From an uncultured Verrucomicrobiales bacterium (GTDB taxonomy: Bacteria > Verrucomicrobiota > Verrucomicrobiia > Limisphaerales > Palsa-1400), in the NCBI GenBank assembly GCA_903927905.1, contig CAIYOY010000133.1, positions 1-41,044 of the forward strand: a stretch of 41,044 bases of DNA, in the 5' to 3' direction. The notes under the pieces are model-generated. The model ran no database searches. It saw only the letters and a list, made by a program, of their open reading frames with translations, and had not been told where the DNA came from. Numbering within the stretch: position 1 is the first letter of the stretch; each line of letters begins with the position of its first letter. Shown one piece after another: positions 11,680 through 33,863 of the stretch. The position numbers and the translations under genes were made by a program.

Positions 11680-11696
11680 TGGACAACTTATTGGTA

Positions 11697-11738
11697 GGGT
11701 GACACCCCATGGCGGTGAAATGATTTCCCGGGCTAATT
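11697..11738 (+). promoter_or_regulatory. Bipartite motif copy 1: GGGTGACACCCCATGGC-N17-GGCTAATT
   Basis: Same architecture as 14281, 25244, 31218 and 33823. Lies upstream of the decayed efflux locus. Confidence 0.45.
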
Positions 11739-11857
11739 TTGCGTGGTATGCAACTTGTCAGAATCGGCGGAATCAAGGAATTCAATCCCGACAGCGAATG
11801 GTCGCTGGTCTCGGAGACTGGCGTCCCGGGCATCGTGTCCGAACAATAATCCCAGCC

Positions 11858-12452
11858 ATGTCCGCCAGTTCTGATCGCGGCAATGCAACTAAAAGCGAGG
11901 CCATTGTTGCGACCGATCTGACCAAATGGTTCGGCGAAGGCGAGGCCAAAGTGACCGCTGTCAAAGGAGTCGAACTGGACGCTGAACAATGACCAATTGG
12001 CTGATTTTCGTTTGAACACCATCGGTTTTGTCTTCCAGGATTACCATCTGTTCCCGCGTTTAACCGCAGCGGAGAATGTCGCCATCCCCCTGATCCTGAA
12101 ACAGCACAATTGGGACGAGTCCATCACCGAAGCAAATAAATATCTGGAAATCGTCGGCCTGAAAGGTCGGGGTGAAATTCTTCCGGTGAAGTTTTCCGGC
12201 GGCTAACAACAGCGTGTGGCCATTGCCCGCGCGATCATCAGCCGTCCCGAAATCCTGATTCTCGATGAACCAACCGCTTCACTGGACGGCGACACCGGAA
12301 AGATGATCATCGCTTTCGTCAAAGAGAATATCCTGAACGAAAAGCGCTGCATCCTGATCGTCACCCATGACGCCCGCATCAACGAGTACGCCGACCGCAT
12401 CCTCAACATGGAAGATGGAGTCAGCCGGCTTCGACTTTTTCCATCAAGTTGA
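11858..12452 (+). pseudogene. Decayed MacB/LolD-type ABC transporter ATPase
   Basis: MSASSDRGNATKSEAIVATDLTKWFGEGEAKVTAVKGVELDAEQ* then LADFRLNTIGFVFQDYHLFPRLTAAENVAIPL...[37 protein letters not shown]...ILIVTHD. The Walker A segment is missing and a TAA interrupts the signature motif at 12204-12206. Confidence 0.85.
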
Positions 12453-12678
12453 AACCGCTGGCCACGAAGCCCATCTCAATTCCTTTTGGCCTTCCATCGC
12501 AATTACTCGAACGCCGTCCCGATATCTCAATGTCATCATCGCGCAAACCACTTTATTGGGCAATCAGCGGACCGCGCTGAATCTCCGCATGGAACAGATG
12601 ACTGCGAGCGTGCAGTTGATCAAGGCGCTGGGTGGAGGCTGGGATGTTTCAGGGGGAACGATTCAGCCGGCGTTTTAA
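12431..12678 (+). pseudogene. Remnant of NodT-family (RND/ABC tripartite) outer-membrane factor
   Basis: Frame starting 12491 reads IPFGLPSQLLERRPDI, a hallmark of OMF lipoproteins. A second frame then reads YLNVIIAQTTLLGNQRTALNLRMEQMTASVQLIKALGGGWDVSGG*, the typical OMF C-terminus. Internal deletion plus frame change near 12520-12530. Confidence 0.8.
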
Positions 12679-13991
12679 AAGTTCCAATGTATCCGCGTGC
12701 CGAAAACGGAAATCGGGCCGCGCGCCTGGTTGAAAGACGGATTGCCGATGAATTGGTAATCAAAGGAACCGTGGAGGTTTTTCCAGATTTGAAAATCGTA
12801 GTAGGTTTCCAAGACCTGCTCCCAGCCGTAATTCAGTTGTCCATCACCTGCGAGAATGCCTGTTCCACCCGCCGCAAGAAATCGTTGATGAACACGGGAG
12901 ATGCCGTTGAAAGCTCCAGCCACGCCAAAGGTGTCGTTGGGCCGGTGCCACGATTCGCCCTTGACGCTGACTCCCAAGGTGGCGGTGCGATCCACGTCGG
13001 CAAAGGTCCAGCCTTCATTTTCGCCGTCGCTCCAGCCCAGGCGCATGAACACGCCGATGTTTTTGACGATTTCCTGTTCGGCGTTCAGGCCGAAGCCGTA
13101 TTTGCTGCGGTAAGCGCGGGTGGCCTGAATATTGGCGGGGCGCACGGGATTATCGAGCGCGGCTTGATAGCTGCCCATGTGGGCACGGTTCAAAAAGGCG
13201 AGCAAGCGGACTGCGCCGGGATGATCGCCCAGGGCAAAACGGCGTTCCAATTCTGTGACCATGCCCCAGGCGTCCAAGTAATGTGAATCGAGCGCGGTGC
13301 CGTTGGAGACACGCGGCATCTGAAAGAACCCGTAGCGGACGGCCCATTTCGGCTGATTTAATTCCGCCGCGAACCCGGTCATGTAGCCCAGGCTGTCCGC
13401 CGGGTAATCCCAGGCTTCGTTGGCCATGAGGCTCCAATTCATGAATTGGGTGCGCGGATCGTTGGCGTAGGTGTTGTTATCGAAAATATCTTTGACACTC
13501 ATCCGGCCAAGGGTGAGGGTGAGGCGGGAAATGTCACGTTTACCGGCAAGTTGCAACGCATCGTCTTCGACCGTTTCCTGTTCGCCGCCCAAGCCGAAGG
13601 TTTGCCGGATAAAAGCGCGGGCGAGATTGACATTGGGAACCTGGGTGCCAAGGCGGAAGGCCTCGCCGTTCGGGAAGCCTTCGGCCCCGAGGGTCTTGCT
13701 GAAACCGAATCCCTGCCACGTCAACCCATCCACATGAAATTCGGCGCCCGGCCACAATTTTGCGCCGAGCAATAAATCCAAAGAAACGGTATCCCGAACT
13801 TCGGAGGCGCTGTGCATGCTGTTTGGGCCGGAATAGGCGGCGGCGAAGCCGGGATGGTATTGGAGAATGTCCGTGTTCTGCATGTGCCAATTCCAGCTTT
13901 GCTCCTGGGGAGCAGGGGGCTGATTGGTTTCCTGCGATTTCGCCGAAATCGCCAGCAGGGCAAAAGGAATTAGACAAACAAATTGTTTCAA
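12675..13991 (-). CDS. Carbohydrate porin, OprB-like
   Basis: Signal LKQFVCLIPFALLAISAKSQ, then WNWHMQNTDILQYHPGFAAAYSGPNS...RLTLTLGRMSVKDIFDNNTYANDPRTQFMNWSL...IGNPSFNQARGPISVFGTRIHWNF. Probable TTG start near 13991; the track ORF extends to 14351 through repeat DNA. Confidence 0.7.
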   Translation of the reverse strand: MKQFVCLIPFALLAISAKSQETNQPPAPQEQSWNWHMQNTDILQYHPGFAAAYSGPNSMHSASEVRDTVSLDLLLGAKLWPGAEFHVDGLTWQGFGFSKTLGAEGFPNGEAFRLGTQVPNVNLARAFIRQTFGLGGEQETVEDDALQLAGKRDISRLTLTLGRMSVKDIFDNNTYANDPRTQFMNWSLMANEAWDYPADSLGYMTGFAAELNQPKWAVRYGFFQMPRVSNGTALDSHYLDAWGMVTELERRFALGDHPGAVRLLAFLNRAHMGSYQAALDNPVRPANIQATRAYRSKYGFGLNAEQEIVKNIGVFMRLGWSDGENEGWTFADVDRTATLGVSVKGESWHRPNDTFGVAGAFNGISRVHQRFLAAGGTGILAGDGQLNYGWEQVLETYYDFQIWKNLHGSFDYQFIGNPSFNQARGPISVFGTRIHWNF

Positions 13992-14087
13992 CGGGTTTTT
14001 ATTTACCAGACCGCCAGTGGGCGGACGAGGAAGAAGTGACGTGTCAAACAAGTGGGGGTATGCGGACACTGCTACATTTGATGATCT

Positions 14088-14134
14088 CTGCCGATTAACA
14101 ATCGGCGATACAGCCGACTGCCAGTCGGCGCTAC
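14088..14134. repeat. Double-hairpin palindromic intergenic repeat
   Basis: GCCGATT-AAC-AATCGGC (14090-14106) followed by GCCGACT-GCC-AGTCGGC (14113-14129). The antisense translation contains RRSADWQSAVSPIVNRQ. Confidence 0.8.
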
Positions 14135-14280
14135 GCCGCAATAACAAGATGCCCTCGGAAAAGTTGCGCGGAAATAATTCGCCACGCCCGGGTGAAAAGT
14201 TCGTGCCAGGTTTCTTTTTTCTCTTTGCCTCCCCGCACGGCATTCTTTCCGCCATCTCGCTATCAGGTGTTTTACCCAGA

Positions 14281-14320
14281 GGGTTAGACCCCATGGAATG
14301 AACGGGGCCATGGCCTATTG
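14281..14320 (+). promoter_or_regulatory. Bipartite motif copy 2: GGGTTAGACCCCATGGA-N15-GCCTATTG
   Basis: Upstream of the giant DUF11-like gene (probable start 14424). Confidence 0.45.
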
Positions 14321-14423
14321 TTGCGCCGTGAGAAATCCCATGCATTTCCAAAAAGGAAATCCAGACCGGGCGCTGCCAACAGCGCCGGCCACGGCTTCGC
14401 TCACCACCAAAAGCAACAATATT

Positions 14424-17400
14424 ATGACCATCCCCACCTCAAATTCCGCGCCGAACACGCGCGGGCCATCCTCCATTCGATTCACTTTCGCAGCTCTGCT
14501 GGCGGGATTGTTTTTGCTTCTTGGCAGTTCGCCATCGGCCCGCGCCCAAGGGACACCGCCGTCGTGCAACGGCAGCGGCATCGGCATCACGCTCTTTACA
14601 GATGCCAATGACGCGCACATCGGTGATACGCTTTATTACAGCGCTTATGTCTATAACGGCATCCCGAACAGCGGTCGCACGGTTTGCGACGCCTCCAACA
14701 TCACCGCCTCGATCACCACGCCGGACGGGGTCATCCACCCGATGACGTTGTTGCGGACCTATCTTTCACAAGGCCAGGGCGATTTTTACAGTAACGTCGT
14801 GAGTTACGTCGTACGCGCCCAAGATGTCCTGCCCGATGGCACGGTTCGCGCCACCGACCAAGACCATGCCAAGATCCTGCAAAACGACACACCCAGCGAT
14901 GGCGACGGTCTGCAAGGTGTGAACACGGAAATCAGTCTGCCTTGCATCCTGCTGATCTCGACCTGCACCGGCGGCGTGGGTGAGAATGGGTTGATCAATT
15001 TCATCGGCACGGTCACCAACTGCGGTAACAACACGCTGGTCAATGTGGCCATCACCAACTATGTAGATGGCCAGGCTTACCCGGTGGCGTTCATCACCAA
15101 TCTCGCCTTCGGCCAGATTGCCAATTTCAGCGGCAGTTTCACCCCGACGAATCCCTGCGCGCAAACCACCCAGACGCTGGTGGGCACGGGCTCCGATCAA
15201 TATACCGCCCATCCCCGGCAATTGTTCAGCACCAACCAAAACACCTGCGGTGAATCTTTGACGCCGGGCATCGTGGTGACCAAATCGTGTCCTGTCTCGC
15301 CCGTTGCTCCAGGTCAATTACTTGTTTTTTCCGGCAGCGTGAGCAACTCGGGCAACGTGACATTGACCAACATTGTCGTGGTCAACAATGTGCCGACCAA
15401 TAACACCCCGGTCATCACCTATGCCACGCTGGCTCCGGGCGCGATTTCCAATTTCACCGGCGGCTATCTGGCCCCGACGAATTGTTCAGCGACCGACACT
15501 TTGACCGCGACCGCGAACAGCCGATGCGGCGTGCCGGTCAGCAGTTCAGCCACGGCGACCTGTTCGATCACGACGACCCCGCAGATTTTGGTGACAGCCT
15601 TGTGTCCGGTGTCCCAGATCTTGTCCGGCGGCACGTTCATCAATACCGGCTCGGTGCAAAACACCGGCAACAATGCGTTGACCAATGTGGTGGTGGTTTC
15701 CAGTTTGCCCGTGGCGAACACCGTGGTCTTCTCCGCCAACACCATGGCTCCCGGAGTCATCGCCAACTTCACCACCACGAACACCGTTCCGGCCAATGCC
15801 TGCACGGTTTCGACCACGTTCACTGGAACCGGTCGCGACAGTTGCACGCTCACCCCCGTCACGAACAGCTCCACGGCCAATTGCTCCGTCACAACGGCCC
15901 CGAGCATCGGCGTCACATTGTCTTGCCCCGTTTCGCCCGCCACCACGGGCGGTTTGATCGTCTATACCGGCAACGTCACCAATTCCGGCAACGTCACGCT
16001 GAATAATATATTTGTCGTGAACAACCAGCCGACCAACAACGCGCCGGTGGTCGGCCCGTTGACCTTGGCACCCCATACTTCCTCCAATTTCACCACCAGC
16101 TTCATCGCACCGGCTAATTCCTGTTCGGTCAGCAGCACGGTTAAAGCCACGGGCAACGACAACTGCACCAGTCTCCCGGTGACGAACACGGCGACGGCCA
16201 ACTGCACTTTGCTGACCAGCCCGAGCCTGGTCCTGGTCCAAACCTGCCCGGTGATTCAGGCGGTTCCCGGTGGCGCGCTGGTTTACAGCGGCACGGTGAG
16301 CAATGCGGGTAACATCACGTTGACCAACGTGGTTATCTTGAACAACCAGACCGGCACCAACGTGATCTTCACGGCTCTTTCGATGGCTCCGGGCGCAGTC
16401 TCCAATTACTCCGGCAGTTATACCGCTCCGGCGGCTTGTTCTTCCACCAGCACTTCGACCGGCACGGCTGTCAGCATCTGCGGCACCCCGGTCAACAATT
16501 CATCCACCACCACTTGCCCGATCAGCACGGCTCCGTTCCTGGTCCTGATCCAAAATTGTCCGGTGACTCCGGCGGTTCCCGGCGGCACATTGGTTTACAG
16601 CGGCACCGTGAGCAATGCGGGTAATATCACCGTCACCAACGTCATCATCCGCAACGACCAGACCGGTGTTAACCCGATCTTTACCGCCGCCTCGATGGCG
16701 CCGGGTGCGGTCTCCAATTATTCCGGCAGTTATACGGCTCCGGCGGCTTGCACCTCGACCAGCACCTCAACGGGTACGGCGACCAGCATCTGCGGCGTTG
16801 CCATGACCAACACGGTGACCACCACCTGTCCGATCACCACTACTCCGGGCATCGTGCTTACCCAAGCCTGCCCGGTCAGCCCTGTCAGCCCCGGTAACTT
16901 GCTGACCTTTACCGGCACCGTGAGAAACTCGGGCAATATCATGTTGACCAATGTTGTCATCTTGAATGACCAAATCGGACTGACGCCGGTCTATACCATC
17001 GCCAACCTGGCACCGGGAGCGATCTCCAATTACACCGGCAGCTACACTGCGCCGAATAGCTGCACCAGCACCAGCACCTCGACCGGCACGGCCACCAGCA
17101 TCTGCGGCGTGCCTGTCACGAACACGGCGAGCACGACCTGTCCGCTCACTACTGCTCCGGGTATTTTCCTCACCCAAAGCTGCCCGGTCTCGCCGGTCAG
17201 CCCTGGTGGACTCTTGATTTATACCGGCTCGGTGAGCAATTCCGGCAATATCACGCTGACCAACGTGGTCATCTTGAACAGCCAAACTGGCACCAACGTG
17301 ATCTACATGGTCACTAACCTCCCGGCTGGCGCGGTTTCCAATTACACCGGCAGCTATCTGGCACCGTCTAATTGTTCCGTCACCAGCACTTCGACCGGCA

Positions 17401-20400
17401 CCGGTCGCAGCACCTGCGGTATTGCGGTGACCAACACGGTTACTTCGACCTGTTCCATCACCACCACGCCGGTCATCGCGGTGACGGCGGTTTGCCCGGT
17501 TACTCCGCTCGTTCCCGGTGGTTCGTTTATCTATAGCGGCACCGTGAGCAATGCAGGCAATAACATCCTGACCAATGTGCTCGTGGTCGCCGACCGCCCC
17601 GTGGCCAACACGGTGATCTTCAGCGCGGCCACCATGGCGGCCGGAGCCGTCGCCAACTTCACCAGCACGAACACTGTTCCGGCGAACGCCTGTTTCGTCA
17701 CCACCACCTTCACTGGAACCGGCCGGGATAGCTGCACGCTCAATTCAGTGACGAATAGCGCCACGGCCACCTGCACGGTCATCACGGCTCCGAACATCGG
17801 GGTCACGCTGAACTGCCCGGTTACAACCGCAACTACTGGCGGATTGATCACTTACACGGGAACCGTGACCAACTCCGGCAACGTGATCTTGAACAACGTC
17901 ACTGTGATTGACAATCAAGCGTCACCCACGAACGTCCTGATCATCGCGAGCATGGCGGCACATTCCTCCTCGAACTTCACCGCCAGCTTCACCGCTCCGG
18001 CGAACTCCTGTTCGGTCAGCAGCACAGTCACGGCGACGGGTAGCGACAACTGCACCGGTAACATGGTGACGAATGCCGCGACGGCTAACTGCTCGCTGAT
18101 CACCACCCCGCTCCTTGTTCTCACCCAAAACTGTCCGATCACTCCGGCCGTTCCCGGTGGTCTGCTGATTTACAGCGGCACGGTGAGCAACGCGGGTAAC
18201 ATCACTTTGACCAACGTGGTCATCTTGAATAATCAAACCGGCACCAACGTGATCTATACGATCACCAACCTGGCACCGGGCGCAGTTTCCAATTACTCCG
18301 GCAGTTATATCGCCCCGGCGGCTTGTTTGAGCACCAGCACTTCGACCGGCACGGCGACCAGCATCTGTGGCGTTCCTGTCACCAACGCGGTCAGCACCAC
18401 TTGCGCGATCAGCACTGCTCCGCTCCTCGTCCTCACGCAAAATTGCCCGGTTACTCAGGCGGTTCCTGGCGGGTTGCTGGTTTACAGCGGCACGGTCAGC
18501 AATGCGGGCAATATCACGCTCAATAACGTGAGCATCGTGAACGATCAGACTGGCGGCTCGCCGATCTTCACTGCTGTCTCAATGGCACCGGGTGCGGTTC
18601 TTAACTACTCCGGCAGTTATACCGCTCCGGCGGCTTGTTCTTCCACCAGCACCTCGACCGGCACGGCGACCAGCATCTGCGGCCCCGTGGTCAGCAATAC
18701 GGCCACCACCGTCTGCCCGATCACCACGACCCCGAGTTTGAATCTGACGCAAAATTGCCCGGTCACGCCGATTGTTCCCGGTGGTTTGCTGACTTACACC
18801 GGCACGGTGAGAAACTCCGGCAACATCATGTTGACCAACGTGGTCATCGTGAACAGCCAGAGTGGAACCATCTACACTGTCACCAATCTCGCGCCGGGAG
18901 CGATCTCCAATTACACCGGCAGCTATCTGACGCCGACCAATTGTTCCACCGCCAGCACTTCGACCGGCACGGCCACCAGCATCTGCGGTGTCTCCGTCAC
19001 GAACACGGCGAGCACCACCTGTGCGATCACCACGACCCCGGTGCTGATCGTCACCCAAAACTGCCCGATCACTCCGGCTGTTCCTGGTGGTCTGCTGATT
19101 TACAGCGGCACGGTCAGCAACGCGGGTAACATCACCCTGACCAACGTGGTGATCTTGAATAATCAAACCGGCACCAACGTGATCTACACGGTCACGAACC
19201 TAGCGCCGGGCGCGGGCTCCAATTATACCGGCAGCTACATCGCTCCGGCGGCTTGCTCCTCCACCAGCACTTCGACTGGCACGGCGACGAGCGTCTGCGG
19301 TGTTTCCGTCACCAACTCGGCCAGCACGACCTGTTCGATCAGCACGGCTCCGTTCTTGGTCTTGACCCAAAACTGCCCGGTGACTCCGGCGGTTCCCGGT
19401 GGCCTGATGATTTACAGCGGCACCGTCAGCAATGCCGGTAATATCACCATCACCAATGTGGTTATCTTGAATAATCAAAGCGGGCCGACCCCGATCTTCA
19501 CCGCCGTCTCGATGGCACCGGGAGCCGTCTCCAACTTCAGCGGCAGCTATCCGACCCCGGCGGCTTGCACGACCACCAGCACCTCGACCGGCACGGCGAC
19601 CAGCATCTGCGGCATCGCCATGACGAACACGGCGACCACGACTTGCACGATCACCACCACGCCGAATATCACACTCACCCAAAACTGCCCGGTCGCTCCG
19701 GTGGTTCCCGGTGGCTTGTTGACTTACAGCGGCACGGTGCAGAACACCGGTAATATCATGTTGACCAATGTGGTCATCGTGAACAGCCAGACCGGCACCA
19801 ACGTGATCTACACGGTGACCAACCTGGCACCGGGTGCGATCTCCAATTATTCCGGCAGCTACGTTGCGCCGACGAACTGTTCCACTGGCAGCACCTCGAC
19901 CGGCACGGCGACCAGCATCTGCGGCGTCTCCGTTACCAATACGGCGAGCACCACTTGCACAATCACCACGACTCCGGTGCTGATCCTTACCCAAAACTGC
20001 CCGATCACTCCGGTGGTCCCGGGTGGTCTGCTGACTTACAGCGGCACGGTGAGCAACGCGGGTAACATCACGATCACCAATGTGGTCATCTTGAACAGCC
20101 AAACCGGCACCAACGTGATCTACACGGTCACGAACCTGGCACCGGGCGCGGTCTCCAATTACAGCGGCAGTTACCTGGCCCCGACCAATTGTTCGGTCAC
20201 CAGCACTTCGATCGGCACCGGTCGCAGCGTCTGCGGTATCGCAGTCACCAATACGGTGATCTCGACCTGTTCCATCACCACCGCGCCTCAGATCAAGGTA
20301 ACCGTGCTTTGCCCGGTGACTCCGATCACGCCCGGCAGTGTGTTCACCTATACCGGCTCAGTGAGCAATGCGGGTAATATCATCCTGACGAACGTGCTCG

Positions 20401-22739
20401 TGGTCAGTGACCGGCCTTCGACCAATACGACGGTCTTCACGTTGGCGACCCTCGCCCCTGGCGCGGTCACCAACTTCACCGCCACTTATACGGTTCCGCC
20501 CAACGCCTGCACGGTCACCACGACCTTTAGCGCCACCGGTCATGACAATTGCAGCGGCAACAATGTCACCAACATCACCGCGACCACTTGCACGGTCATT
20601 ACGACTCCGAACATCGGGGTCACACTGAACTGCCCGGTTACGTCTTCGGTCACTGGCGGCTTGATTACCTACACTGGAACGGTGACCAACTCCGGCAACG
20701 TCATCTTGAACAATGTCATGGTGATTGACAATCAGACGTCGCCCACGAACGTCTTGATCATCGCCAGCATGGCGGCGCATTCGTCCTCGAACTTCACCGC
20801 CACGTTCATCGCCCCGGCTAACTCCTGCTCAGTGAGCAGCACAGTGACCGCCACCGGCAGCGACAACTGCACCGGCAACATGGTGACGAATATCGCTTCG
20901 GCCAACTGCTCGTTGATCACGACCCCGGCACTTGTTCTGACCCAGAACTGCCCGGTCAGTCCGATCTTCCCCGGCACGGTGATGACTTATAGCGGCACGG
21001 TGAGCAACGCGGGTAACATCACGATCACTAACGTGGTCATCGTGAATGACCAGAGCGGGATCACCCCGATCTTCACCGCCGCCTCGCTGGCGCCAGGAGC
21101 AGTCTCCAACTATTCCGGCAGCTATACGGCTCCGACGCTGTGTTCCACCACCAGCACTTCGACCGGCACTGGTCGCAGCATCTGCGGCGTGTTCGTCACC
21201 AACGCGGTGACCACGACCTGCCAGATCACCACGACCCCGGGCATCCAAGTGGTCCAGTCCTGCCCCGTGACCAATGTGCTGGCCGGCGGATTACTGACCT
21301 ACACCGGCACGGTGCGGAACACCGGCAATATCACGCTGACCAACGTCATCGTGACGAGCGATCGCCCCAGCTCGAATACGGTGATCTTCACCCGCGCCAC
21401 TCTCGCGGTTGGCGCCATCGCCAACTTCTCCGGCAGCTATCAAGTGCCGAGCAACTGCTGTGTGGTTTCGAGCACGGTCACCGGCACTGGCCAGGGCTGC
21501 GCTGGAGTCACCGTTAGTGATACCGATACACGGACCTGCACGGTGTTGACGATTCCGGCCATCGTGGTCACCAAGAACTGCACCTCCGGCACCATCCGCG
21601 CGGGCGACATGCTGACCTACACCGGGTTTGTCAGCAACTCCGGCGACATCACCTTGATCAACGTCACCGTGATAAATAATCAACCGAACGGCGGCACCAC
21701 CCTCTTCGGCCCTGCCACTCTTGCCCCGGGCGAACGGTTCTACTACTCGGCCTCTTACGTTGTTCCGGCGGACTTCTGCGGAATGGACACGGTCACGGCC
21801 AGCGGCATGAATGTCTGCACCTATCAAACGGTGACGAACAGCGTGACCTCGACCTGTCCGGTGACCACGCCTCCCCCGCGCATCGCCCTGACCAAGAATT
21901 GCCCGGTGACACCGACGCCGCGCGGCGGCCTCTACACCTTCACCGGCACGGTGAGCAATCCTGGCACGGTCACGCTGGTCAATGTCTTCATCGTGGACAA
22001 TCAACCGACGAACAACAGCCCGATCATCGGGCCGATCAGCATCGCGCCCGGCGCCACAGTCATCTTCACCAACAGCTACATCGCCCCGCGCTGCTGCTGC
22101 TTGATATTTGACACGCTCACCGCCAACGGCCAGGACCGCTGCTCCGGCAGCAGTGTGACAACGACGGCTTCGACCGTCTGTCCGATCTTGTCCACTCCGA
22201 GCCTCTCGATCACCCGGGTTTGCCCGGTGACCGGACCGGTCGGCAGCACTTATACCTACACCGGCTTCGTCACCAACACCGGCGACGTGGTCCTGACCAA
22301 CGTGCTGATCTACAGCAGCCAGCCGAACGCCAACACGCTGTTGTTCGGGCCGACGGAACTCGCCCCCGGCGAATCCACCTCCTTCACCGGCAGTTACACG
22401 GTGGTGACCAATTCCAATCCGGCGAACGATACCGTCACTGCGGTCGGCACGGACACTTGCCAGGGTCGGACAGTTTCCGCCTCGGCGAACTGCGCTGGCG
22501 CTGTGGGAGAACCGGTTCCGCCGACGATCACTTGGCTGACCGTTTCCAATCACTTGGCGACCGTCACTTGGTCGGCCATCTCCGGGAATACCTATTCGCT
22601 GCAAAGCAAGGACTACCTTGGGACGAATATCTGGGGCACGGTTCCCGGACCGGTGGTCGCCACGACCAACAGCGCGTCCAAACTGGACCCGACGCCGATC
22701 ACGACGAACCGCTTCTACCGCGTCAAGGTCGGGCCATAA
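14424..22739 (+). CDS. Giant secreted protein with tandem DUF11-like (TIGR01451-type) repeats
   Basis: Track ORF 14298-22739 (2813 aa). Likely start ATG 14424 with signal SIRFTFAALLAGLFLLLGSSPSARAQ. About 23 modules of ~105 aa with pattern L.LTQNCPV.P.VPGG.L.YSGTVSN.GNITLTNVV...LAPGA.SN..GSY.AP..CS.TST.TGT..S.CG...TN...T.C.ITT.P. Confidence 0.85.
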   Translation: MTIPTSNSAPNTRGPSSIRFTFAALLAGLFLLLGSSPSARAQGTPPSCNGSGIGITLFTDANDAHIGDTLYYSAYVYNGIPNSGRTVCDASNITASITTPDGVIHPMTLLRTYLSQGQGDFYSNVVSYVVRAQDVLPDGTVRATDQDHAKILQNDTPSDGDGLQGVNTEISLPCILLISTCTGGVGENGLINFIGTVTNCGNNTLVNVAITNYVDGQAYPVAFITNLAFGQIANFSGSFTPTNPCAQTTQTLVGTGSDQYTAHPRQLFSTNQNTCGESLTPGIVVTKSCPVSPVAPGQLLVFSGSVSNSGNVTLTNIVVVNNVPTNNTPVITYATLAPGAISNFTGGYLAPTNCSATDTLTATANSRCGVPVSSSATATCSITTTPQILVTALCPVSQILSGGTFINTGSVQNTGNNALTNVVVVSSLPVANTVVFSANTMAPGVIANFTTTNTVPANACTVSTTFTGTGRDSCTLTPVTNSSTANCSVTTAPSIGVTLSCPVSPATTGGLIVYTGNVTNSGNVTLNNIFVVNNQPTNNAPVVGPLTLAPHTSSNFTTSFIAPANSCSVSSTVKATGNDNCTSLPVTNTATANCTLLTSPSLVLVQTCPVIQAVPGGALVYSGTVSNAGNITLTNVVILNNQTGTNVIFTALSMAPGAVSNYSGSYTAPAACSSTSTSTGTAVSICGTPVNNSSTTTCPISTAPFLVLIQNCPVTPAVPGGTLVYSGTVSNAGNITVTNVIIRNDQTGVNPIFTAASMAPGAVSNYSGSYTAPAACTSTSTSTGTATSICGVAMTNTVTTTCPITTTPGIVLTQACPVSPVSPGNLLTFTGTVRNSGNIMLTNVVILNDQIGLTPVYTIANLAPGAISNYTGSYTAPNSCTSTSTSTGTATSICGVPVTNTASTTCPLTTAPGIFLTQSCPVSPVSPGGLLIYTGSVSNSGNITLTNVVILNSQTGTNVIYMVTNLPAGAVSNYTGSYLAPSNCSVTSTSTGTGRSTCGIAVTNTVTSTCSITTTPVIAVTAVCPVTPLVPGGSFIYSGTVSNAGNNILTNVLVVADRPVANTVIFSAATMAAGAVANFTSTNTVPANACFVTTTFTGTGRDSCTLNSVTNSATATCTVITAPNIGVTLNCPVTTATTGGLITYTGTVTNSGNVILNNVTVIDNQASPTNVLIIASMAAHSSSNFTASFTAPANSCSVSSTVTATGSDNCTGNMVTNAATANCSLITTPLLVLTQNCPITPAVPGGLLIYSGTVSNAGNITLTNVVILNNQTGTNVIYTITNLAPGAVSNYSGSYIAPAACLSTSTSTGTATSICGVPVTNAVSTTCAISTAPLLVLTQNCPVTQAVPGGLLVYSGTVSNAGNITLNNVSIVNDQTGGSPIFTAVSMAPGAVLNYSGSYTAPAACSSTSTSTGTATSICGPVVSNTATTVCPITTTPSLNLTQNCPVTPIVPGGLLTYTGTVRNSGNIMLTNVVIVNSQSGTIYTVTNLAPGAISNYTGSYLTPTNCSTASTSTGTATSICGVSVTNTASTTCAITTTPVLIVTQNCPITPAVPGGLLIYSGTVSNAGNITLTNVVILNNQTGTNVIYTVTNLAPGAGSNYTGSYIAPAACSSTSTSTGTATSVCGVSVTNSASTTCSISTAPFLVLTQNCPVTPAVPGGLMIYSGTVSNAGNITITNVVILNNQSGPTPIFTAVSMAPGAVSNFSGSYPTPAACTTTSTSTGTATSICGIAMTNTATTTCTITTTPNITLTQNCPVAPVVPGGLLTYSGTVQNTGNIMLTNVVIVNSQTGTNVIYTVTNLAPGAISNYSGSYVAPTNCSTGSTSTGTATSICGVSVTNTASTTCTITTTPVLILTQNCPITPVVPGGLLTYSGTVSNAGNITITNVVILNSQTGTNVIYTVTNLAPGAVSNYSGSYLAPTNCSVTSTSIGTGRSVCGIAVTNTVISTCSITTAPQIKVTVLCPVTPITPGSVFTYTGSVSNAGNIILTNVLVVSDRPSTNTTVFTLATLAPGAVTNFTATYTVPPNACTVTTTFSATGHDNCSGNNVTNITATTCTVITTPNIGVTLNCPVTSSVTGGLITYTGTVTNSGNVILNNVMVIDNQTSPTNVLIIASMAAHSSSNFTATFIAPANSCSVSSTVTATGSDNCTGNMVTNIASANCSLITTPALVLTQNCPVSPIFPGTVMTYSGTVSNAGNITITNVVIVNDQSGITPIFTAASLAPGAVSNYSGSYTAPTLCSTTSTSTGTGRSICGVFVTNAVTTTCQITTTPGIQVVQSCPVTNVLAGGLLTYTGTVRNTGNITLTNVIVTSDRPSSNTVIFTRATLAVGAIANFSGSYQVPSNCCVVSSTVTGTGQGCAGVTVSDTDTRTCTVLTIPAIVVTKNCTSGTIRAGDMLTYTGFVSNSGDITLINVTVINNQPNGGTTLFGPATLAPGERFYYSASYVVPADFCGMDTVTASGMNVCTYQTVTNSVTSTCPVTTPPPRIALTKNCPVTPTPRGGLYTFTGTVSNPGTVTLVNVFIVDNQPTNNSPIIGPISIAPGATVIFTNSYIAPRCCCLIFDTLTANGQDRCSGSSVTTTASTVCPILSTPSLSITRVCPVTGPVGSTYTYTGFVTNTGDVVLTNVLIYSSQPNANTLLFGPTELAPGESTSFTGSYTVVTNSNPANDTVTAVGTDTCQGRTVSASANCAGAVGEPVPPTITWLTVSNHLATVTWSAISGNTYSLQSKDYLGTNIWGTVPGPVVATTNSASKLDPTPITTNRFYRVKVGP
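15268..22500 (+). repeat. Coding tandem repeat array (~105-codon modules, ~23 copies)
   Basis: Recurring CPV / SGTVSN.GNI / CG / TTC.ITTTP landmarks counted by eye. Confidence 0.85.
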
Positions 22740-22799: not shown

Positions 22800-22824
22800 C
22801 GGTGAATAAATAAAAAAGACAATT

Positions 22825-23859: not shown

Positions 23860-23890
23860 ACGTGTGAACTTTACCCACGACGGTAGCAGT

Positions 23891-24142: not shown

Positions 24143-24168
24143 AAATTTTTCACCACCGATCGCCCGGT

Positions 24169-25170: not shown

Positions 25171-25243
25171 GGCAAGGACATTGGGGCAAATCACCATTGC
25201 GCTCAAGTTGCAATTCCGCCATGGCCAAGTCAGATCAGCCTTC

Positions 25244-25283
25244 GGGTTATACCCCATAGCGCCCGCGACTCCATCGCCTATCC
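25244..25283 (+). promoter_or_regulatory. Bipartite motif copy 3: GGGTTATACCCCATAGC-N15-GCCTATCC
   Basis: Upstream of the DUF3309-led small-protein cluster. Confidence 0.5.
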
Positions 25284-25352
25284 TCATCGCATTGGGATCA
25301 TGTAACTCTTCCGCCCCGGAAAGTCGGGTTCCTTGTCAACGAAAGAAATATT

Positions 25353-25508
25353 ATGTTAGGAACGGTTTTATTGGTGCTGCTGATTCTCATGGTCCTCGGC
25401 GCGCTTCCCACCTGGCCGCACAGCAAGGGTTGGGGCTATTACCCCAGTGGCGGGCTTGGTTTGGTGCTGGTGATTTTGGTCGTGCTCCTTTTGCTCGGTC
25501 GAATTTGA
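25353..25508 (+). CDS. DUF3309 family small membrane protein (51 aa; absent from ORF track)
   Basis: MLGTVLLVLLILMVLGALPTWPHSKGWGYYPSGGLGLVLVILVVLLLLGRI* matches the DUF3309 pattern (GALPTWP.S..WGY.PSGGLGL.L.ILLILLLLGRI). Confidence 0.92.
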   Translation: MLGTVLLVLLILMVLGALPTWPHSKGWGYYPSGGLGLVLVILVVLLLLGRI

Positions 25509-25522
25509 ACAGGAATAAATTT

Positions 25523-26161
25523 ATGCTGCAAAGTCTTAAACAATTATACGGCGATAAACTCGGCGCAGCCGAGGGCGAAATCGGTCAGGTGAAGGATTTT
25601 TATTTCGACGACCAAAGCTGGACCATTCGCTACATCGTCGCCGACACCGGCACCTGGCTCTCAGGCCGGCAGGTTCTTCTCTCGCCCCGAGCCTTCGGCC
25701 ATTTTCACGAAGCTGGAAAAGTCTTGGACGTGAATTTGACCCGGAAACAAATCGAAGGCAGTCCCTCCATTAATCTGCACAAACCCGTCTCGCGCCAATA
25801 CGAGGAGGAATACCATCGCTATTACAATTGGCCGTTTTACTGGGAATCACCTCTGCCCGACGGAATAATCGCGCCGCCGCGCGAATCCGATACGCACCTG
25901 CGCAGCGCCCAAGCCGTGACCGGCTATCACATCCAGGCCAGCGACGGCATTTTCGGCCACGTCTCCGATTTTATGATGGACGCCAAAAACTGGGCCATCC
26001 GCCAACTGATCGTGAAGACCGGCCATCGCTTTTCCGGCAAGGAAGTGGAGATTCCGGTGAGTCAGGTCGAACGCATCAGTTACGATGAGTCGGCCGTCAT
26101 CGTGAATTTAACCACGGCAGCGGTCGAAAACAGCCCTGCACCGCTGAAGGCCAAAGCTTAA
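25523..26161 (+). CDS. PRC-barrel domain protein (two PRC-barrel-like halves)
   Basis: MLQSLKQLYGDKLGAAEGEIGQVKDFYFDDQSWTIRYIVADTGTWLSGRQVLLSP... and GYHIQASDGIFGHVSDFMMDAKNWAIRQLIVKTGHRFSGKEVEIPVSQVERISYDES. Start 25523 is better than the track's 25052. Confidence 0.88.
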   Translation: MLQSLKQLYGDKLGAAEGEIGQVKDFYFDDQSWTIRYIVADTGTWLSGRQVLLSPRAFGHFHEAGKVLDVNLTRKQIEGSPSINLHKPVSRQYEEEYHRYYNWPFYWESPLPDGIIAPPRESDTHLRSAQAVTGYHIQASDGIFGHVSDFMMDAKNWAIRQLIVKTGHRFSGKEVEIPVSQVERISYDESAVIVNLTTAAVENSPAPLKAKA

Positions 26162-26180
26162 TCTCAGTCAAATAATTTTT

Positions 26181-26414
26181 ATGAAACACAATAAACATCA
26201 GCAAAAAGAGGCAGCCGCCGATCGGGCGAACTTAAGCACCAACGGAGTTGATTTTGCTCCGTCCGCCGACGAAGTGGCCCGCCGGGCCTATTTCAGTTAC
26301 CAAAACGAAGGCTCGAAGCCTGGACGCGACGTGCAGCATTGGCTCGAAGCCGAAGCGCAACTTCTCGCCGAACGTAATCTCACCCGGATTCACGGCTTTC
26401 ACAACGCAAACTAA
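26181..26414 (+). CDS. DUF2934 domain-containing protein
   Basis: EVARRAYFSYQNEGSKPGRDVQHWLEAEAQLLAE matches DUF2934. Confidence 0.8.
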   Translation: MKHNKHQQKEAAADRANLSTNGVDFAPSADEVARRAYFSYQNEGSKPGRDVQHWLEAEAQLLAERNLTRIHGFHNAN

Positions 26415-26421
26415 TATTCTT

Positions 26422-26877
26422 ATGCCCACTCCATTTATAGACCGCGACTTGACCCAGCAAGCTCCCCACAGCCCGCGCGAACGCCTCGCCGGATTCGCCA
26501 TTGCCCTCCGCACCCTGGACAAATGCCGCGCCAGCCTGACGGGAAAATTGGGCGACTATCATTACGATTGTCCGCTGGACAAAATGCTTTTCGGTTTCAA
26601 GGGCATCACTGGCGACCAATTCAAAACAGCTGTTCAATCCTCAAAAAATTATGAAGAAGTCGGCGCCTGGCTGCTGGCTAATGGCACCCAAAAAACACCG
26701 GCGGAAATTAAAGCCTGGTCGGATGAAATGGAAGCGGGCAGTCCCATGAAAAATCCGGAAAAACGCGCTTACTTCATCGAGCAATGCTCCAAACTGATGA
26801 TCAATCCTCAAACCAACACCACCTTCGACTGGCTGGAAGCCGACGACCGCGCCTCGTTCAGCCAAAAACCGAAGTAA
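26422..26877 (+). CDS. DUF5069 domain-containing protein
   Basis: RDLTQQAPHSPRERLAGFAIALRTLDKCRASLTGKLGDYHYDCPLDKMLFGFKGI. Confidence 0.75.
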   Translation: MPTPFIDRDLTQQAPHSPRERLAGFAIALRTLDKCRASLTGKLGDYHYDCPLDKMLFGFKGITGDQFKTAVQSSKNYEEVGAWLLANGTQKTPAEIKAWSDEMEAGSPMKNPEKRAYFIEQCSKLMINPQTNTTFDWLEADDRASFSQKPK

Positions 26878-26891
26878 CACCTGTTCTATTT

Positions 26892-27119: not shown

Positions 27120-27123
27120 ATTT

Positions 27124-28218: not shown

Positions 28219-28444
28219 GCGCGTCCATTCTGGGATAAACTTATTGCTTCCGCCAGCAGCCGGTTCGTATGGGTAGAACACCTGATGGTATCCATTTGCC
28301 TTTCTCTTGTATTTTCAGCTCAAGAATTAATCACACGATTGCCGGCTGCTCACGGGACACAGAGCGGCTCAACAAAATATGGCTAACAAATGACAAGAAA
28401 GGGAGAGCGCAGAGCCACCCTGTCCAATAGTGTGCCAACAGCAA

Positions 28445-28927: not shown

Positions 28928-28939
28928 CTTGAACCTCCA

Positions 28940-30283
28940 ATGAAAAAGACAATAAAAACACAGTGTTGGATGGTTGGACTTTTGGCCGCTGTCTGTCTGT
29001 CGGCCTGCCCAGCGGGGGCGCAAGTGAGCAATGACGATTTCAACGCGTTGAAGAAAACGGTCGAGCAATTGGTGGACAAGGTGCAAAAACTGGAGCAGAC
29101 GCACGTCAGCGATGCCCAAACGCACCAGCAAGACATGGCGCAGATCCAACAACTCCAGTTGAAGCTGGAGCAAACGCAACAGGCGGCCAGAAACGCCGAA
29201 AGCCAGGGGGCCACCGCCGCGCAGAGCCAGCAGCTGGCGCGCATGCCGCTGGACGAAACTACTGTCAACCACAACTTTATGATTTTGGGCGACGCCGAGT
29301 TTCAATACGCCAAAACGTCCGGCCAGCACGGGGCCTTTTTGCTGGCTGATTTTGCCCCGATCTTCCTGTATCGCGCCGGGAGCAATATTTTGTTCGAGGC
29401 CGGCTTTGATTTCACAATGCAGAATGTCGCGCCCGCCGGCAGCGGGTACAACACCGCCATCAATTTGAGTTTTGCGCAGTTGGATTACGTCATCAATGAT
29501 TACGCGACCTTCGTGGCGGGAAACATGTTGTTGCCGCTCGGAACCTACAGTGAACGGACCGCCGGATGGCTGAACAAATTTCCCGATGATCCATTGGCGC
29601 GCGATCTGGTTCCCGGCAGCGGGGTGGGGGTGCAACTGCGCGGAGCGGTTCCGCTGGGCGAGTCCGGCAAGTTATTTAACTATGCGGTGTTTGGGGTGAA
29701 TGGGCCAAGTTCGGCGGATGGCACGGGCAAGGCCGGTTCGCTTGACCTGGGCGGGAACGTGGGGCTGAGATCCGATAACGCCGTGGCCAATCTGCACGGA
29801 CGACCAGTCGGCGGCGCGCGGTTCAGTTTATTTTTGCCCTTCAAGCCGCATTACGACTTGGAAGTCGGACTGTCCGGCCAATCAGGCCAATGGGATGATG
29901 CAGGCCAGCATCTCTGGTCGGCTGGTTTGCTGGATATGAGTCTGCACTTGGGACCAAATTTTGAAGTGAAAGGTGAGTATGTCAAAAGCCGTTACGGCAG
30001 TGACGACTTTGGTCTGATCCATCCGCAAGGTTGGTGGGTGCAGGCGGGCTACAAGCTGGCCGGATTGAATTTGGAGTGGCCGGTGATCAACAACCTTGAA
30101 CTCGTGGGCCGCTACGACTCGGTGCGCGACGGCCTTGGCACCAGAACCCGCCGCGCCAGCGTGGGTTATGTTTACTACCTTTCCAACACGCTGCTTTTTG
30201 AGGGCGATTATGAATTCGTGCACAGCAGCGATGTGACCCAGTCAGCCAACCAGCTGATTTTGCAACTTTCCTACGGGTTTTAA
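28940..30283 (+). CDS. Outer-membrane beta-barrel porin-like protein with N-terminal coiled coil
   Basis: Signal peptide, then a Gln-rich coiled coil, then alternating beta-barrel-like sequence ending in aromatic residue (LILQLSYGF). Confidence 0.7.
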   Translation: MKKTIKTQCWMVGLLAAVCLSACPAGAQVSNDDFNALKKTVEQLVDKVQKLEQTHVSDAQTHQQDMAQIQQLQLKLEQTQQAARNAESQGATAAQSQQLARMPLDETTVNHNFMILGDAEFQYAKTSGQHGAFLLADFAPIFLYRAGSNILFEAGFDFTMQNVAPAGSGYNTAINLSFAQLDYVINDYATFVAGNMLLPLGTYSERTAGWLNKFPDDPLARDLVPGSGVGVQLRGAVPLGESGKLFNYAVFGVNGPSSADGTGKAGSLDLGGNVGLRSDNAVANLHGRPVGGARFSLFLPFKPHYDLEVGLSGQSGQWDDAGQHLWSAGLLDMSLHLGPNFEVKGEYVKSRYGSDDFGLIHPQGWWVQAGYKLAGLNLEWPVINNLELVGRYDSVRDGLGTRTRRASVGYVYYLSNTLLFEGDYEFVHSSDVTQSANQLILQLSYGF

Positions 30284-30329
30284 AATTACCGATGAAAATC
30301 AATCCTGATGATCGAAACGGAAAGCAGCC

Positions 30330-31151
30330 ATGAGTATATTTCAATCACTAAACCAAAGTCGGCGGGTGCGATGGCTGTTGCCTTGGGCCCTGGTCGCGCA
30401 CGGGTGCATGTTGTTTACAGCATCGGCGCAGACGGTCCCCACCGCCGCCGCGTCAGAAACGAAGCCGCCCGCGCCCACGTACCTCCGCGATATCCAGCCG
30501 ATTTTGATGGGACATTGTTCCAGGTGTCATAACAGCCAGGCCAGGTTCGTGTACGATTGGCTGGATTATAAAACCGCCTTCCGGGATCGCTGGGAAATCA
30601 AAAGAAGGATATGGGACAGTTGGAAAGGTTCTTATTACAAAGAGTCCATGCCCATTCAAAACAGTCCGGAATCCCTGTTGATCAGCGAGGAAGACCGGCA
30701 GTTGATCAGAGATTGGGTGACCTCCGGCGCGGCTTGCGGAACCCAGCCAGTAGATGACGGACACAAATCCAAGTCTGAACGGGTGGTTCTTGGCCGGAAA
30801 CTTTTCAACTCCATTTGCGCCGCTTGTCATCAGCCCACCGGCCAGGGTCTGCCGAATGTGTTTCCGCCTTTGGCCGGATCGGATTTTTTGAACGCCGATA
30901 AAAAGCGGGCCATAAAAATCGTCATCAATGGCCGGCAGGGCGAGGTGGTGGTGAACGGGATGAAATTTAACAACAGCATGCCCTCTTTCCCGCTGAGCGA
31001 CCAGGACATCGCCAATGTCCTGACGTTCGTTTATAATTCATTCGGCAACGCCGGGCTTGAAGTGAACCCGGAAGAGGTGAAACTTTTCCGGGCCGAGCCG
31101 CCCGACCCATCCGGCCCGCCCGCCGCCCCGGTAAAAAATCAGTACGAGTGA
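30330..31151 (+). CDS. Dihaem c-type cytochrome
   Basis: PILMGHCSRCHNSQARF... and LFNSICAACHQPTGQGLPNVFPPLAGSDFL: two CXXCH motifs. Confidence 0.85.
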   Translation: MSIFQSLNQSRRVRWLLPWALVAHGCMLFTASAQTVPTAAASETKPPAPTYLRDIQPILMGHCSRCHNSQARFVYDWLDYKTAFRDRWEIKRRIWDSWKGSYYKESMPIQNSPESLLISEEDRQLIRDWVTSGAACGTQPVDDGHKSKSERVVLGRKLFNSICAACHQPTGQGLPNVFPPLAGSDFLNADKKRAIKIVINGRQGEVVVNGMKFNNSMPSFPLSDQDIANVLTFVYNSFGNAGLEVNPEEVKLFRAEPPDPSGPPAAPVKNQYE

Positions 31152-31217
31152 AGTTAATAAAAAACAACTTCATGTTCAGGGCTGTCTTCCTGCCTTGAAG
31201 GTCAATTGATGTCCATG

Positions 31218-31260
31218 GGGTGAATACCCCATGGCGAACCAGCCCGTTCCCCGCCTATCC
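31218..31260 (+). promoter_or_regulatory. Bipartite motif copy 4: GGGTGAATACCCCATGGC-N17-GCCTATCC
   Basis: Upstream of 31342. The core CCATGGGGT-GAAT-ACCCCATGG is a perfect 9-bp inverted repeat. Confidence 0.5.
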
Positions 31261-31341
31261 TCCCAGTGCCCAAACCTCATCGCTTGGGGTGGAGTGTGTC
31301 TCATGCTTCAGGCATCCAAAAAAATTGTTATCAGAAAAAAT

Positions 31342-31764
31342 ATGAAATTAAACGCAGGACTCTGGATTGACCATCGGGAAGCCATTATTGTGACCCTGAC
31401 CGGATCGGGTGAAGAAATCAAACACCTCCACTCCGCCGTGGAAAAACAGCTCCGCCGCGAGGGCGAGCCAGCCAACGGCGCGTTTGAAGCGCAACAGGCT
31501 CCGGCCGACGATTCGCGCCAGCGGGAATACACCGGGCATCTCGCACATTACTACGACGCCATCATTAAACACTTGCACGACGCCGGCTCCATCCTGATTT
31601 TCGGTCCCGGCGAGGCCAAGGGCGAACTGAAAAAGCAATTCGAGAAACACGATAATCCAACCGCCCCGCGCGTCATCACTTTGGAAACCACCGATAAATT
31701 GACCGAGCCACAGATTCTCGCGAAGGTTCGTCATCATTTCCATCGCGATCCGCCCAGGATTTGA
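31342..31764 (+). CDS. Conserved hypothetical (possible BaeRF/eRF1-like family)
   Basis: MKLNAGLWIDHREAIIVTLTGSGEEIKHLHSAVE...YYDAIIKHLHDAGSILIFGPGEAKGELKKQFEKH. Family assignment is tentative. Confidence 0.5.
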   Translation: MKLNAGLWIDHREAIIVTLTGSGEEIKHLHSAVEKQLRREGEPANGAFEAQQAPADDSRQREYTGHLAHYYDAIIKHLHDAGSILIFGPGEAKGELKKQFEKHDNPTAPRVITLETTDKLTEPQILAKVRHHFHRDPPRI

Positions 31765-31786
31765 AGATGCCCAACCGCCACAACGT

Positions 31787-32686
31787 GTGACTTGGACGCC
31801 GCTTGATATCACCGTGCGGGTGGGGTGCAATCTCGCCTATGAATGCACCGTGCCCACGCCGGTGCTTTTCGTGCTCAAGCCCCGGCTCGAAGGCCGCATT
31901 CTGATCATGCAGGAAAAACTTTCCTTCGGCATCGGCCTGCCGTCGTATGAGTTTCAGGACAGTCACGGCAATATCACCTATCGCTCGACTTTCATGCCGG
32001 GCCGCAACGAAATCCGGCACGATGCCATCGTCGCCGTTTCTTCCCTTCCGGACAGCCGCGAAATTATTGGCCCGATCATCCCGGTGGGAGAATTGCCTTC
32101 CGATCTGCTCCGCTATACTTTGCCCAGCCGTTATTGCGATTCGGATAAATTGATGAATTTCGCCTGGCACCATTTCGGCCAGATTTCTCACGGACTCACG
32201 CGCGTCCAAGCCATCTGCGATTGGGTGCATAATAATATCGAATACCGCTACGGTTCCGGTCGGCCCGATCTCTCTGCCTCCGAGGTGCTCGCGCGCCGTC
32301 ACGGGGTCTGCCGCGACTTCGCTCATGCGGCCATCGCCTTGTGTCGCGCGTTCAATCTCCCCGCCCGCTACGTCACCGGCCATCTGCCGGACATCGGGTA
32401 TGTGGATCCGACCGGGCACATGGATTTTCACGCATATTTCGAAGTCTATCTCGGCCAGGAATGGCTCACCTTTGATTCCCGTTTCAACGTCCCGCGCATC
32501 GGACGAGTCAAAGTCGCGCACGGCGCGGACGCGGTGGATGGCGCCTTTGCCACGATCTACGGCGAAGCCAAGCTGACCCATTTTGAAGTCTGGGCCTATC
32601 AAGTGAATTCAAAGCAAGTTTCCGTCGGCGATCCCATTGATTTATCGGAAAGGCTCGATAACAGTTCGACCGTGCGGCTCAGTTAA
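31787..32686 (+). CDS. Transglutaminase-like cysteine peptidase family protein
   Basis: YGSGRPDLSASEVLARRHGVCRDFAHAAIALCRAFNLPARYVTGHLP...DFHAYFEVYLGQEWLTFDSR: Cys/His/Asp transglutaminase core. Confidence 0.85.
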   Translation: MTWTPLDITVRVGCNLAYECTVPTPVLFVLKPRLEGRILIMQEKLSFGIGLPSYEFQDSHGNITYRSTFMPGRNEIRHDAIVAVSSLPDSREIIGPIIPVGELPSDLLRYTLPSRYCDSDKLMNFAWHHFGQISHGLTRVQAICDWVHNNIEYRYGSGRPDLSASEVLARRHGVCRDFAHAAIALCRAFNLPARYVTGHLPDIGYVDPTGHMDFHAYFEVYLGQEWLTFDSRFNVPRIGRVKVAHGADAVDGAFATIYGEAKLTHFEVWAYQVNSKQVSVGDPIDLSERLDNSSTVRLS

Positions 32687-32700
32687 AGAGTTTTTTCCTA

Positions 32701-32783
32701 TCGTAGCAGTCGAGGTAACGAGACTCTAATTCAATTTCTTGACCTTAAGAAAAGTTAGAGTCTCGTTACCTCGACTGCTACGA
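32701..32783. repeat. Perfect 29-bp inverted repeat element (MITE/REP-like; possible terminator)
   Basis: TCGTAGCAGTCGAGGTAACGAGACTCTAA (32701-32729), 25-nt spacer, TTAGAGTCTCGTTACCTCGACTGCTACGA (32755-32783). Confidence 0.93.
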
Positions 32784-32969
32784 AGACCTCGCCCCGCCTC
32801 GTTCTGATAGCGAGCCGGATTTTTTGCCGGCGGGCAGCAATTTTAAGAAAAAAACGAGGAAAAATATCCTTTACAGGCGGAAACTCCGATTTTAATGTTC
32901 CTCATGCCTAAAGGCACGCTATTTAAAAGCAATAAACGGACATTTTTTCGTATATTAAATTGTTAGACC

Positions 32970-33191
32970 ATGTCACGCACCATGAGCAAACGAGACATTA
33001 TCTTTTTCAGTCTTATGGCGGCTTCCTCGCTATGGTGGATGTCTTTGGAGTATTTCCAGTATCGCATGGAGAAGCGCTACGCGACCAGCGGCACGGCAAT
33101 CTCCAAGCGTTTTCGAGTTATTGGTTATTTGGGTACGCTGGCGCTTGTGGCCTTGGCAGCTTTTGTCCGGTTTTGGCTCTTAAAACGTTGA
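32970..33191 (+). CDS. Small membrane protein, hypothetical
   Basis: 73 aa with two hydrophobic segments. Confidence 0.4.
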   Translation: MSRTMSKRDIIFFSLMAASSLWWMSLEYFQYRMEKRYATSGTAISKRFRVIGYLGTLALVALAAFVRFWLLKR

Positions 33192-33211
33192 CTAGCCGGA
33201 AGGAAAAACCA

Positions 33212-33607
33212 ATGAAAACAATCACCATTGAAGAATTGGAAAGTGAAGGATATTCGGAGGATCCTAACGGTCGGAAAGAATTTGAAAGGCCCTACTTGAT
33301 TCCATCCCTTGTTGGCTTAAGCGCATTTGTTATCTGCTTCATTTTGCTGGTCCGTGGAAAAGTGAGCGCCAGGGTTGGGATGATTTCGGTTGGAAGCGCC
33401 TGGCTCTTTTGCGGGGCCACGATCTTGATCGGGTATCTGTCCCGGCCGAAAAGCAAGCTCACGGGGAAACCCCTGATAAAATACCAGAATCGGTCTCCTG
33501 ATTCCGACGTGCGTTTGGAATTGATCTACGTCTGCCCCGACAGCAAAACATTTTTCCGGAGAGTTTTTATGAGGAAGGGTGACGTAGCTGTGGTCGGGGG
33601 CATGTAA
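33212..33607 (+). CDS. Hypothetical membrane protein
   Basis: MKTITIEELESEGYSEDPNGRKEFERPYLIPSLVGLSAFVICFILLV... with two TM segments. Confidence 0.45.
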   Translation: MKTITIEELESEGYSEDPNGRKEFERPYLIPSLVGLSAFVICFILLVRGKVSARVGMISVGSAWLFCGATILIGYLSRPKSKLTGKPLIKYQNRSPDSDVRLELIYVCPDSKTFFRRVFMRKGDVAVVGGM

Positions 33608-33645
33608 ACAATCGCTGAAGTCGGCGGTTTTCGGATGTGATTTAA

Positions 33646-33795
33646 CGGAGAGTGGACATTCCTGTCCGCAGCGAGGTGGAGCGGATCAGAAATATAGCCA
33701 TTTTCCTGGACGATCGGTGCGGACGGTTGGCTCCGGTAAATTCGGACGCGTTTTGGGCTGGTCACGCTGCTGCGGACAGGAATGTCCGCTCTCCG
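33646..33795. repeat. Inverted pair of palindromic repeats, ~150 bp (BIME/MITE-like)
   Basis: Left CGGAGAGTGGACATTCCTGTCCGCAGC (33646-33672). Right 33769-33795 is its reverse complement with 1 mismatch in 27. Each arm contains the internal palindrome GCGGACA-GGAA-TGTCCGC or a near-match. Confidence 0.9.
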
Positions 33796-33822
33796 CCAGA
33801 ACCCCCGTCACACTGCTGGTTC

Positions 33823-33863
33823 GGGTTACACCCCATAGCAAATCGTCGGCCCAAAGCCTAACG
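33823..33863 (+). promoter_or_regulatory. Bipartite motif copy 5: GGGTTACACCCCATAGC-N16-GCCTAACG
   Basis: Upstream of the FecR-MlaE-MlaD operon (start 33888). Confidence 0.5.

Follow-up and report, generated by a model that had tools for sequence, protein, structure and literature searches.

The window analysed here is the whole 41,044-nucleotide contig CAIYOY010000133.1 (C133) of an uncultured Verrucomicrobiales bacterium, whose draft genome (GCA_903927905.1) comprises 4.74 Mb in 427 contigs and is 81% complete. It carries five copies of a bipartite element, in which a palindromic operator is followed at a fixed distance by a -10 hexamer. This element probably marks an undescribed stress regulon, with activated promoters, a two-component activator of the NarL family and clustered targets. 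In the mechanism we propose from sequence comparison, the palindrome near -43 would overlap a degenerate -35 element, in fixed phase with a sigma-70-type -10 hexamer TAnnnT. A phosphorylated NarL-family regulator would bind the two half-sites, e.g. GTAGGGTTAYACCCCATRGC, as a dimer and activate, in class II fashion, a physically clustered stress-protection regulon. A HisKA_3 kinase, often with an RsbU_N input domain, would respond to a presumed inducing signal and serve the regulator, whereas a short ATPase-less RsbU_N-DHp partner, usually without the phospho-accepting histidine, would modulate the kinase by pairing with it.

Architecture, placement and range of the sites

The five window sites obey one rule, (GTA/ATG)GGGT-N3/4-YACCCCATRGC with the first T of TAnnnT 28-30 bases downstream of the A in ACCCC. 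In an alignment of 306, and later 426, unique sites, these adopt either an N3 form, GTA-GGGT-WAY-ACCCCATRGC, or an N4 form, ATG-GGGT-RWWY-ACCCCATRGC, the latter fully palindromic in some copies, such as operator 4 of the window (31213-31234). The histogram of offsets peaks at +29, with the first T of the hexamer at +29 in most N3 sites having a -10, and at +29 or +30 in the N4 sites. Altogether, TAnnnT is present at +28 to +31 in 266 of the 426 sites, compared to 20 ± 4 in shuffled downstream sequence. With TAnnnT set at -12 to -7, the palindrome extends from about -52 to -32 and is centred near -43, the class II position. The -35 position is occupied by TRGCRM, a poor match to TTGACA, which suggests that the operator replaces the -35 element. 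Outside the palindrome and the -10 hexamer, the sequence logo falls to the background level. The first-pass annotation had described a 5' box made of a GGGT/ACCC inverted repeat extended by CATRG, and a second box GSCTAWYB. The palindrome holds, but its left arm had been drawn too short, as it reads GTA-GGGT in the N3 form and ATG-GGGT-R in the N4 form; similarly, the second box does contain the -10 hexamer plus upstream letters, whereas its G/S and its last letters are not conserved.

In the host genome, the pattern GGGTN{3,4}ACCCCATRG gave 12 matches compared to none for the reversed pattern, and the two-box pattern with TAnnnT gave the same counts (12 versus 0), with all five window sites included. 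These matches are confined to four contigs, namely the window itself, C236, C302 and C335; a scan allowing two mismatches yielded mostly noise (89 matches versus 59 in the control). The placement of 60 sites on long contigs of seven genomes is biased: 93% are intergenic compared to 15% of random positions, and the next gene is codirectional for 88% compared to 22% with the site flipped. For 73%, a gene start in the same direction follows within 250 bp, compared to 10% for flipped and 6% for random sites. The orientation and the enrichment upstream of starts implied by the first-pass annotation are thus borne out. Among 124 first downstream genes, those encoding BON (14) and PRC-barrel (11) proteins are the commonest, followed by kinases, DUF883, OsmC, YflT, HSP70 and others; CsbD joins BON, PRC-barrel, DUF883 and OsmC among the stress-type genes behind the sites. 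There is strong support for a promoter-linked, oriented stress regulon.

The sites are patchy and clustered across Verrucomicrobia, Lentisphaerae, Kiritimatiellae and some Planctomycetes. They were found in 141 of 293 genomes of the order, with 936 palindrome matches in total and 0-5 matches per genome, mostly 0, for the reversed pattern, and in 68 of 289 genomes of a phylum sample. A GTDB scan with GTAGGGTWWYACCCCATRGC returned at least 112 stretches, of which about 7 are estimated to be chance matches. Almost all of these stretches belong to Verrucomicrobia, Lentisphaerae and Kiritimatiellae, a few to Planctomycetes, and relatives of Haloferula or Prosthecobacter are among the organisms represented. 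Genomes of one and the same genus can have anything between 0 and 37 sites, and the sites often cluster, such as the 10 sites within 43 kb on contig C13 of the 8.2-Mb genome G209. Inside this cluster lies an alternative F-type ATP synthase-like operon (G209:C13:337305-344057, L095), as judged from its run of open reading frames. In addition, small genomes of family f95 (G464:C17, C32 and C50; G532:C24) carry GGGTCNGACCCCATGG sites that match on both strands, and G464 lacks the regulator described below; these sites probably belong to a different palindrome family.

Candidate regulator, kinase and short partner

Comparison of the cluster proteins between organisms singled out BON proteins, HisKA_3 kinases and one subfamily of NarL-type response regulators (alignment A1) as recurrent. 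The A1 regulator consists of a receiver domain (PF00072), whose phospho-acceptor Asp56 is invariant in the alignment, and a GerE helix-turn-helix (HTH) domain (PF00196), and ends in ...HDTAGLTRYAISAGIIESSVQLTIV. Its nearest relatives of solved structure are VraR, NarL, DesR and DevR, with VraR (193 bits) scoring higher than DevR (128 bits). Among plasmids, its relatives share less than 60% identity, the best about 40%.

Presence of the A1 regulator, scored as a match below 1e-105 (A1-grade), goes together with presence of the sites. Among the 293 genomes of the order, at least three sites were found in 52 of the 69 with an A1-grade match compared to 25 of the 224 others (Fisher 5.5e-24). The association also holds within family f7 (3e-4) and is weaker in genus g46 (0.011). 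Outside the order, the regulator is encoded in 14 of 18 site-rich genomes and in none of 18 site-free relatives (Fisher 1.6e-6). Moreover, in stretches of distant classes chosen by site density alone, it lies inside the site cluster in 5 of 9 genomes. With NarL paralogs bearing the RQQVMNKL signature as a negative control, 31 sites were counted within about 7 kb of 20 A1 regulators compared to 3 around 20 paralogs, and loci with sites numbered 10 of 20 and 3 of 20, respectively (p = 0.04). The first-pass annotation had offered a palindrome-binding regulator as one option, and this option gains support from the operator near -43, the phased canonical -10 and a NarL-type regulator that both co-occurs and co-localises with the sites. 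We infer that the phosphorylated NarL-type regulator, not linked with the motif before, is most likely the protein that binds the palindrome.

On the host contig C302 (L036), which has six sites, a double-domain KaiC-like ATPase (11324-12895) lies directly upstream of a PAS-HisKA_3 kinase (12904-14661) and two A1 regulators (14668-15345 and 15362-16039), an arrangement that recalls the KaiC-SasA-RpaA architecture. Elsewhere, an A1-type regulator gene of G068 (L326:7100-7792) carries a frameshift in the HTH domain, and this genome keeps its sites.

The HisKA_3 kinase is encoded beside the NarL-type regulator and has a PAS or, often, an RsbU_N input domain. In many clusters it is adjoined by a short protein that possesses RsbU_N and HisKA_3 domains and lacks the ATPase domain, for instance at L036:10339-10893, L115:2089-2787, L157:1194-1955 and L164:4499-5197. 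The phospho-histidine is kept in all 68 long kinases, whereas in about 25 true short proteins the position is taken by Gln (15), Lys (1) or Arg (1), a replacement in 17, and by His in the remaining 8; two further "short" entries were left out as kinases truncated at the end of a contig. The short RsbU_N-DHp protein is predicted to act as a decoy or modulator by pairing with the kinase. A site is located -3 to 273 bp upstream of 9 of the 27 short proteins listed, and several kinase operons that start at most 273 bp behind a site suggest autoregulation of the kinase operon.

Competing explanations

Some observations weigh against the NarL-type regulator as the activator of these promoters. Co-occurrence fits a regulator and a mere regulon member alike, and the phylogenetic correction of the counts is incomplete. 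Convincing sites exist without an A1-grade regulator in G041, G112, G195, G203, G291, G111, G140 and G569; some site-bearing genomes of this kind are incomplete, but G041 (96%) and G112 (94%) are nearly complete. Such genomes may have a diverged regulator, an assembly gap or another factor. Conversely, G287, G019 and G172 encode the regulator yet have 0-1 exact sites. The spacing of the half-sites varies by one base, which is unusual for a rigid dimer, and two clusters encode a receiver-less LuxR-type HTH protein.

The genomes with sites but no A1 regulator, the variable spacing and the LuxR-type protein would all suit the operator of a different transcription factor, of whose regulon the NarL-type regulator is only a clustered member. 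We regard this as unlikely: no other DNA-binding family was seen to recur across the clusters, the A1 regulator is found in clusters picked blindly by the motif in distant classes, and it is missing at A1 grade from every site-free relative. The receiver-less LuxR-type proteins, which contain RTEQAET-type coiled-coil repeats and are encoded inside site clusters at L102:5465-5905 and L187:1659-2204, were rejected as the regulator because they are present in only two clusters.

A factor covering -52 to -32 might instead block the promoter, and an operator overlapping the -35 region also suits a repressor. However, TRGCRM is so distant from TTGACA that the promoter would be expected to depend on an activator, those of class II sit near -41 to -43, and repression does not require the strict phase with the -10 hexamer that is kept here, which makes a repressor improbable.

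The promoter of an alternative sigma factor of the extracytoplasmic function (ECF) type, offered in the first-pass annotation as one of two options, would have the first box as its -35 and the second as its -10 element. In line with this, the box spacing resembles that between -35 and -10 elements, and ACCCCATRG, the half that faces the promoter, is conserved. By contrast, the -10 hexamer TAnnnT is of the general sigma-70 type, and conservation of the left half-site, which mirrors the right one, reaches to about -52. A co-conserved sigma gene did not emerge either: in a PF04542 search of eight genomes, the recurrent cluster genes included no sigma factor among the matches listed, and these matches contained none on the contigs that bear the motif in G000, G072, G055, G104 and G041. 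The listed matches included two on G209:C13, which lie outside the cluster at 283 kb, and one on G285:C241, the single nearby case. Owing to the TAnnnT hexamer, the symmetric upstream arm and the lack of a recurrent sigma gene among these matches, an ECF promoter is improbable and was rejected as the general explanation.

Finally, a mobile repeat or RNA hairpin (akin to repetitive extragenic palindromes or a riboregulator) might account for an inverted repeat with a short loop and for its many copies, but was rejected on position and flanks as scarcely credible: the sites point at gene starts, the palindrome lies upstream of its -10 and is therefore untranscribed from that promoter, and the flanks, checked for the conservation that the first-pass annotation had named as the mark of a mobile repeat, are unconserved beyond the palindrome and the -10.

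Window sites, related systems and significance

All five copies reported in the first-pass annotation were confirmed in sequence and position by pattern searches of the window and the genome. They are located on the + strand, and each is followed at +28 to +30 by TAnnnT, as assigned with the two-box pattern. Operator 1 (N3 form, GTAGGGTGACACCCCATGGC, 11694-11713) precedes the -10 hexamer TAATTT (11734-11739), with a predicted transcription start site (TSS) at ~11746. The gene behind it encodes a broken ABC-transporter ATPase (11858-12452) decayed by internal stops, yet the operator and -10 ahead of it are intact. Operator 2 (N3, GGGTTAGACCCCATGGA, 14281-14297), with TATTGT (14316-14321) and a predicted TSS at ~14328, is followed on the + strand by the gene of a giant secreted repeat protein of DUF11/DUF7507 type (14424-22739). 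As the start given by the open reading frame finder (14298) lies upstream of this putative TSS, translation more likely begins at 14340 or 14424.

Operator 3 (N3, GGGTTATACCCCATAGC, 25244-25260), with TATCCT (25279-25284) and a predicted TSS at ~25291, heads a stress-type operon on the + strand (25353-26877) that encodes DUF3309 (25353-25508), PRC-barrel (25523-26161), DUF2934 (26181-26414) and DUF5069 (26422-26877) proteins. Operator 4 (N4, CCATGGGGTGAATACCCCATGG, 31213-31235) is a near-perfect palindrome, sufficiently symmetric to match on both strands, but has its -10 hexamer, TATCCT (31256-31261; predicted TSS ~31268), on the + strand only. It is followed on this strand (31303-32686) by genes for a 153-residue protein without a Pfam match (31303-31764) and a transglutaminase-like protein (31787-32686). 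Operator 5 (N3, GGGTTACACCCCATAGC, 33823-33839), with TAACGT (33859-33864) and a predicted TSS at ~33871, lies ahead of a + strand operon (33888-36366) for a FecR-like/DUF7354 protein, an MlaE permease and MlaD.

A literature search for the motif strings or a Verrucomicrobia stress regulon gave nothing on point; the string matches listed were unrelated papers, and none of the papers searched was seen to describe a general stress regulator or operator in these bacteria. Similar to DosR/DevR of Mycobacterium and OsdR of Streptomyces, the present system combines a NarL-family regulator, a GGG...CCC palindrome and stress genes around the regulator locus; the OsdR operator consensus is AGGGCCGATCGGCCCT (PMC5069765). 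Nevertheless, the operator here is GGGT-N3/4-ACCCCATRG with another spacing, and the sites do not carry the GGGACT/AGTCCC-type (or AGGGCC/GGCCCT) operator of DosR/DevR. The targets also differ (BON, PRC-barrel, CsbD, DUF883 and Mla proteins), as do the kinases, which have PAS or RsbU_N domains, and the regulator is closer to VraR than to DevR. DosR/OsdR is best read as the nearest model, and the system would work in a similar way without a common operator.

The A1 regulator shares its domain architecture with VraR/LiaR and NarL, its best relatives of solved structure, though we know of no operator or regulon that they have in common with the present system. The RpoS, SigB and PhyR-EcfG responses have similar targets, including OsmY-like BON proteins, CsbD, OsmC, YflT and DUF883. 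Unlike in these responses, the code here is apparently read by an activator acting at a -10 element of sigma-70 type; moreover, the A1 regulator has the GerE HTH as its output, and no sigma-like output domain of the PhyR-EcfG type was found in it. As in interference between kinases of the RetS-GacS type, a kinase module is predicted here to modulate an active kinase by pairing with it. However, the partner here is a short RsbU_N-DHp protein without an ATPase domain, encoded beside the kinase and often replaced at the histidine.

A short specific DNA code together with a named candidate regulator would make a stress regulon predictable in hundreds of genomes from mostly uncultured bacteria, and places many small proteins of unknown function in a context, such as DUF883, DUF3309, DUF2934, DUF5069, BON and PRC proteins. 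It also provides a testable claim, namely a two-component activator in place of a stress sigma factor, accompanied by an unusual degenerate partner kinase. More tentatively, Verrucomicrobia, Lentisphaerae, Kiritimatiellae and some Planctomycetes might have in common a general stress response in which a two-component activator, recognising an operator code of its own, replaces an alternative sigma factor. Its kinase could be tuned by a linked RsbU_N decoy that lacks the ATPase domain and usually the histidine, joining a partner-switching input to a two-component output, in a cluster that may move patchily between lineages.

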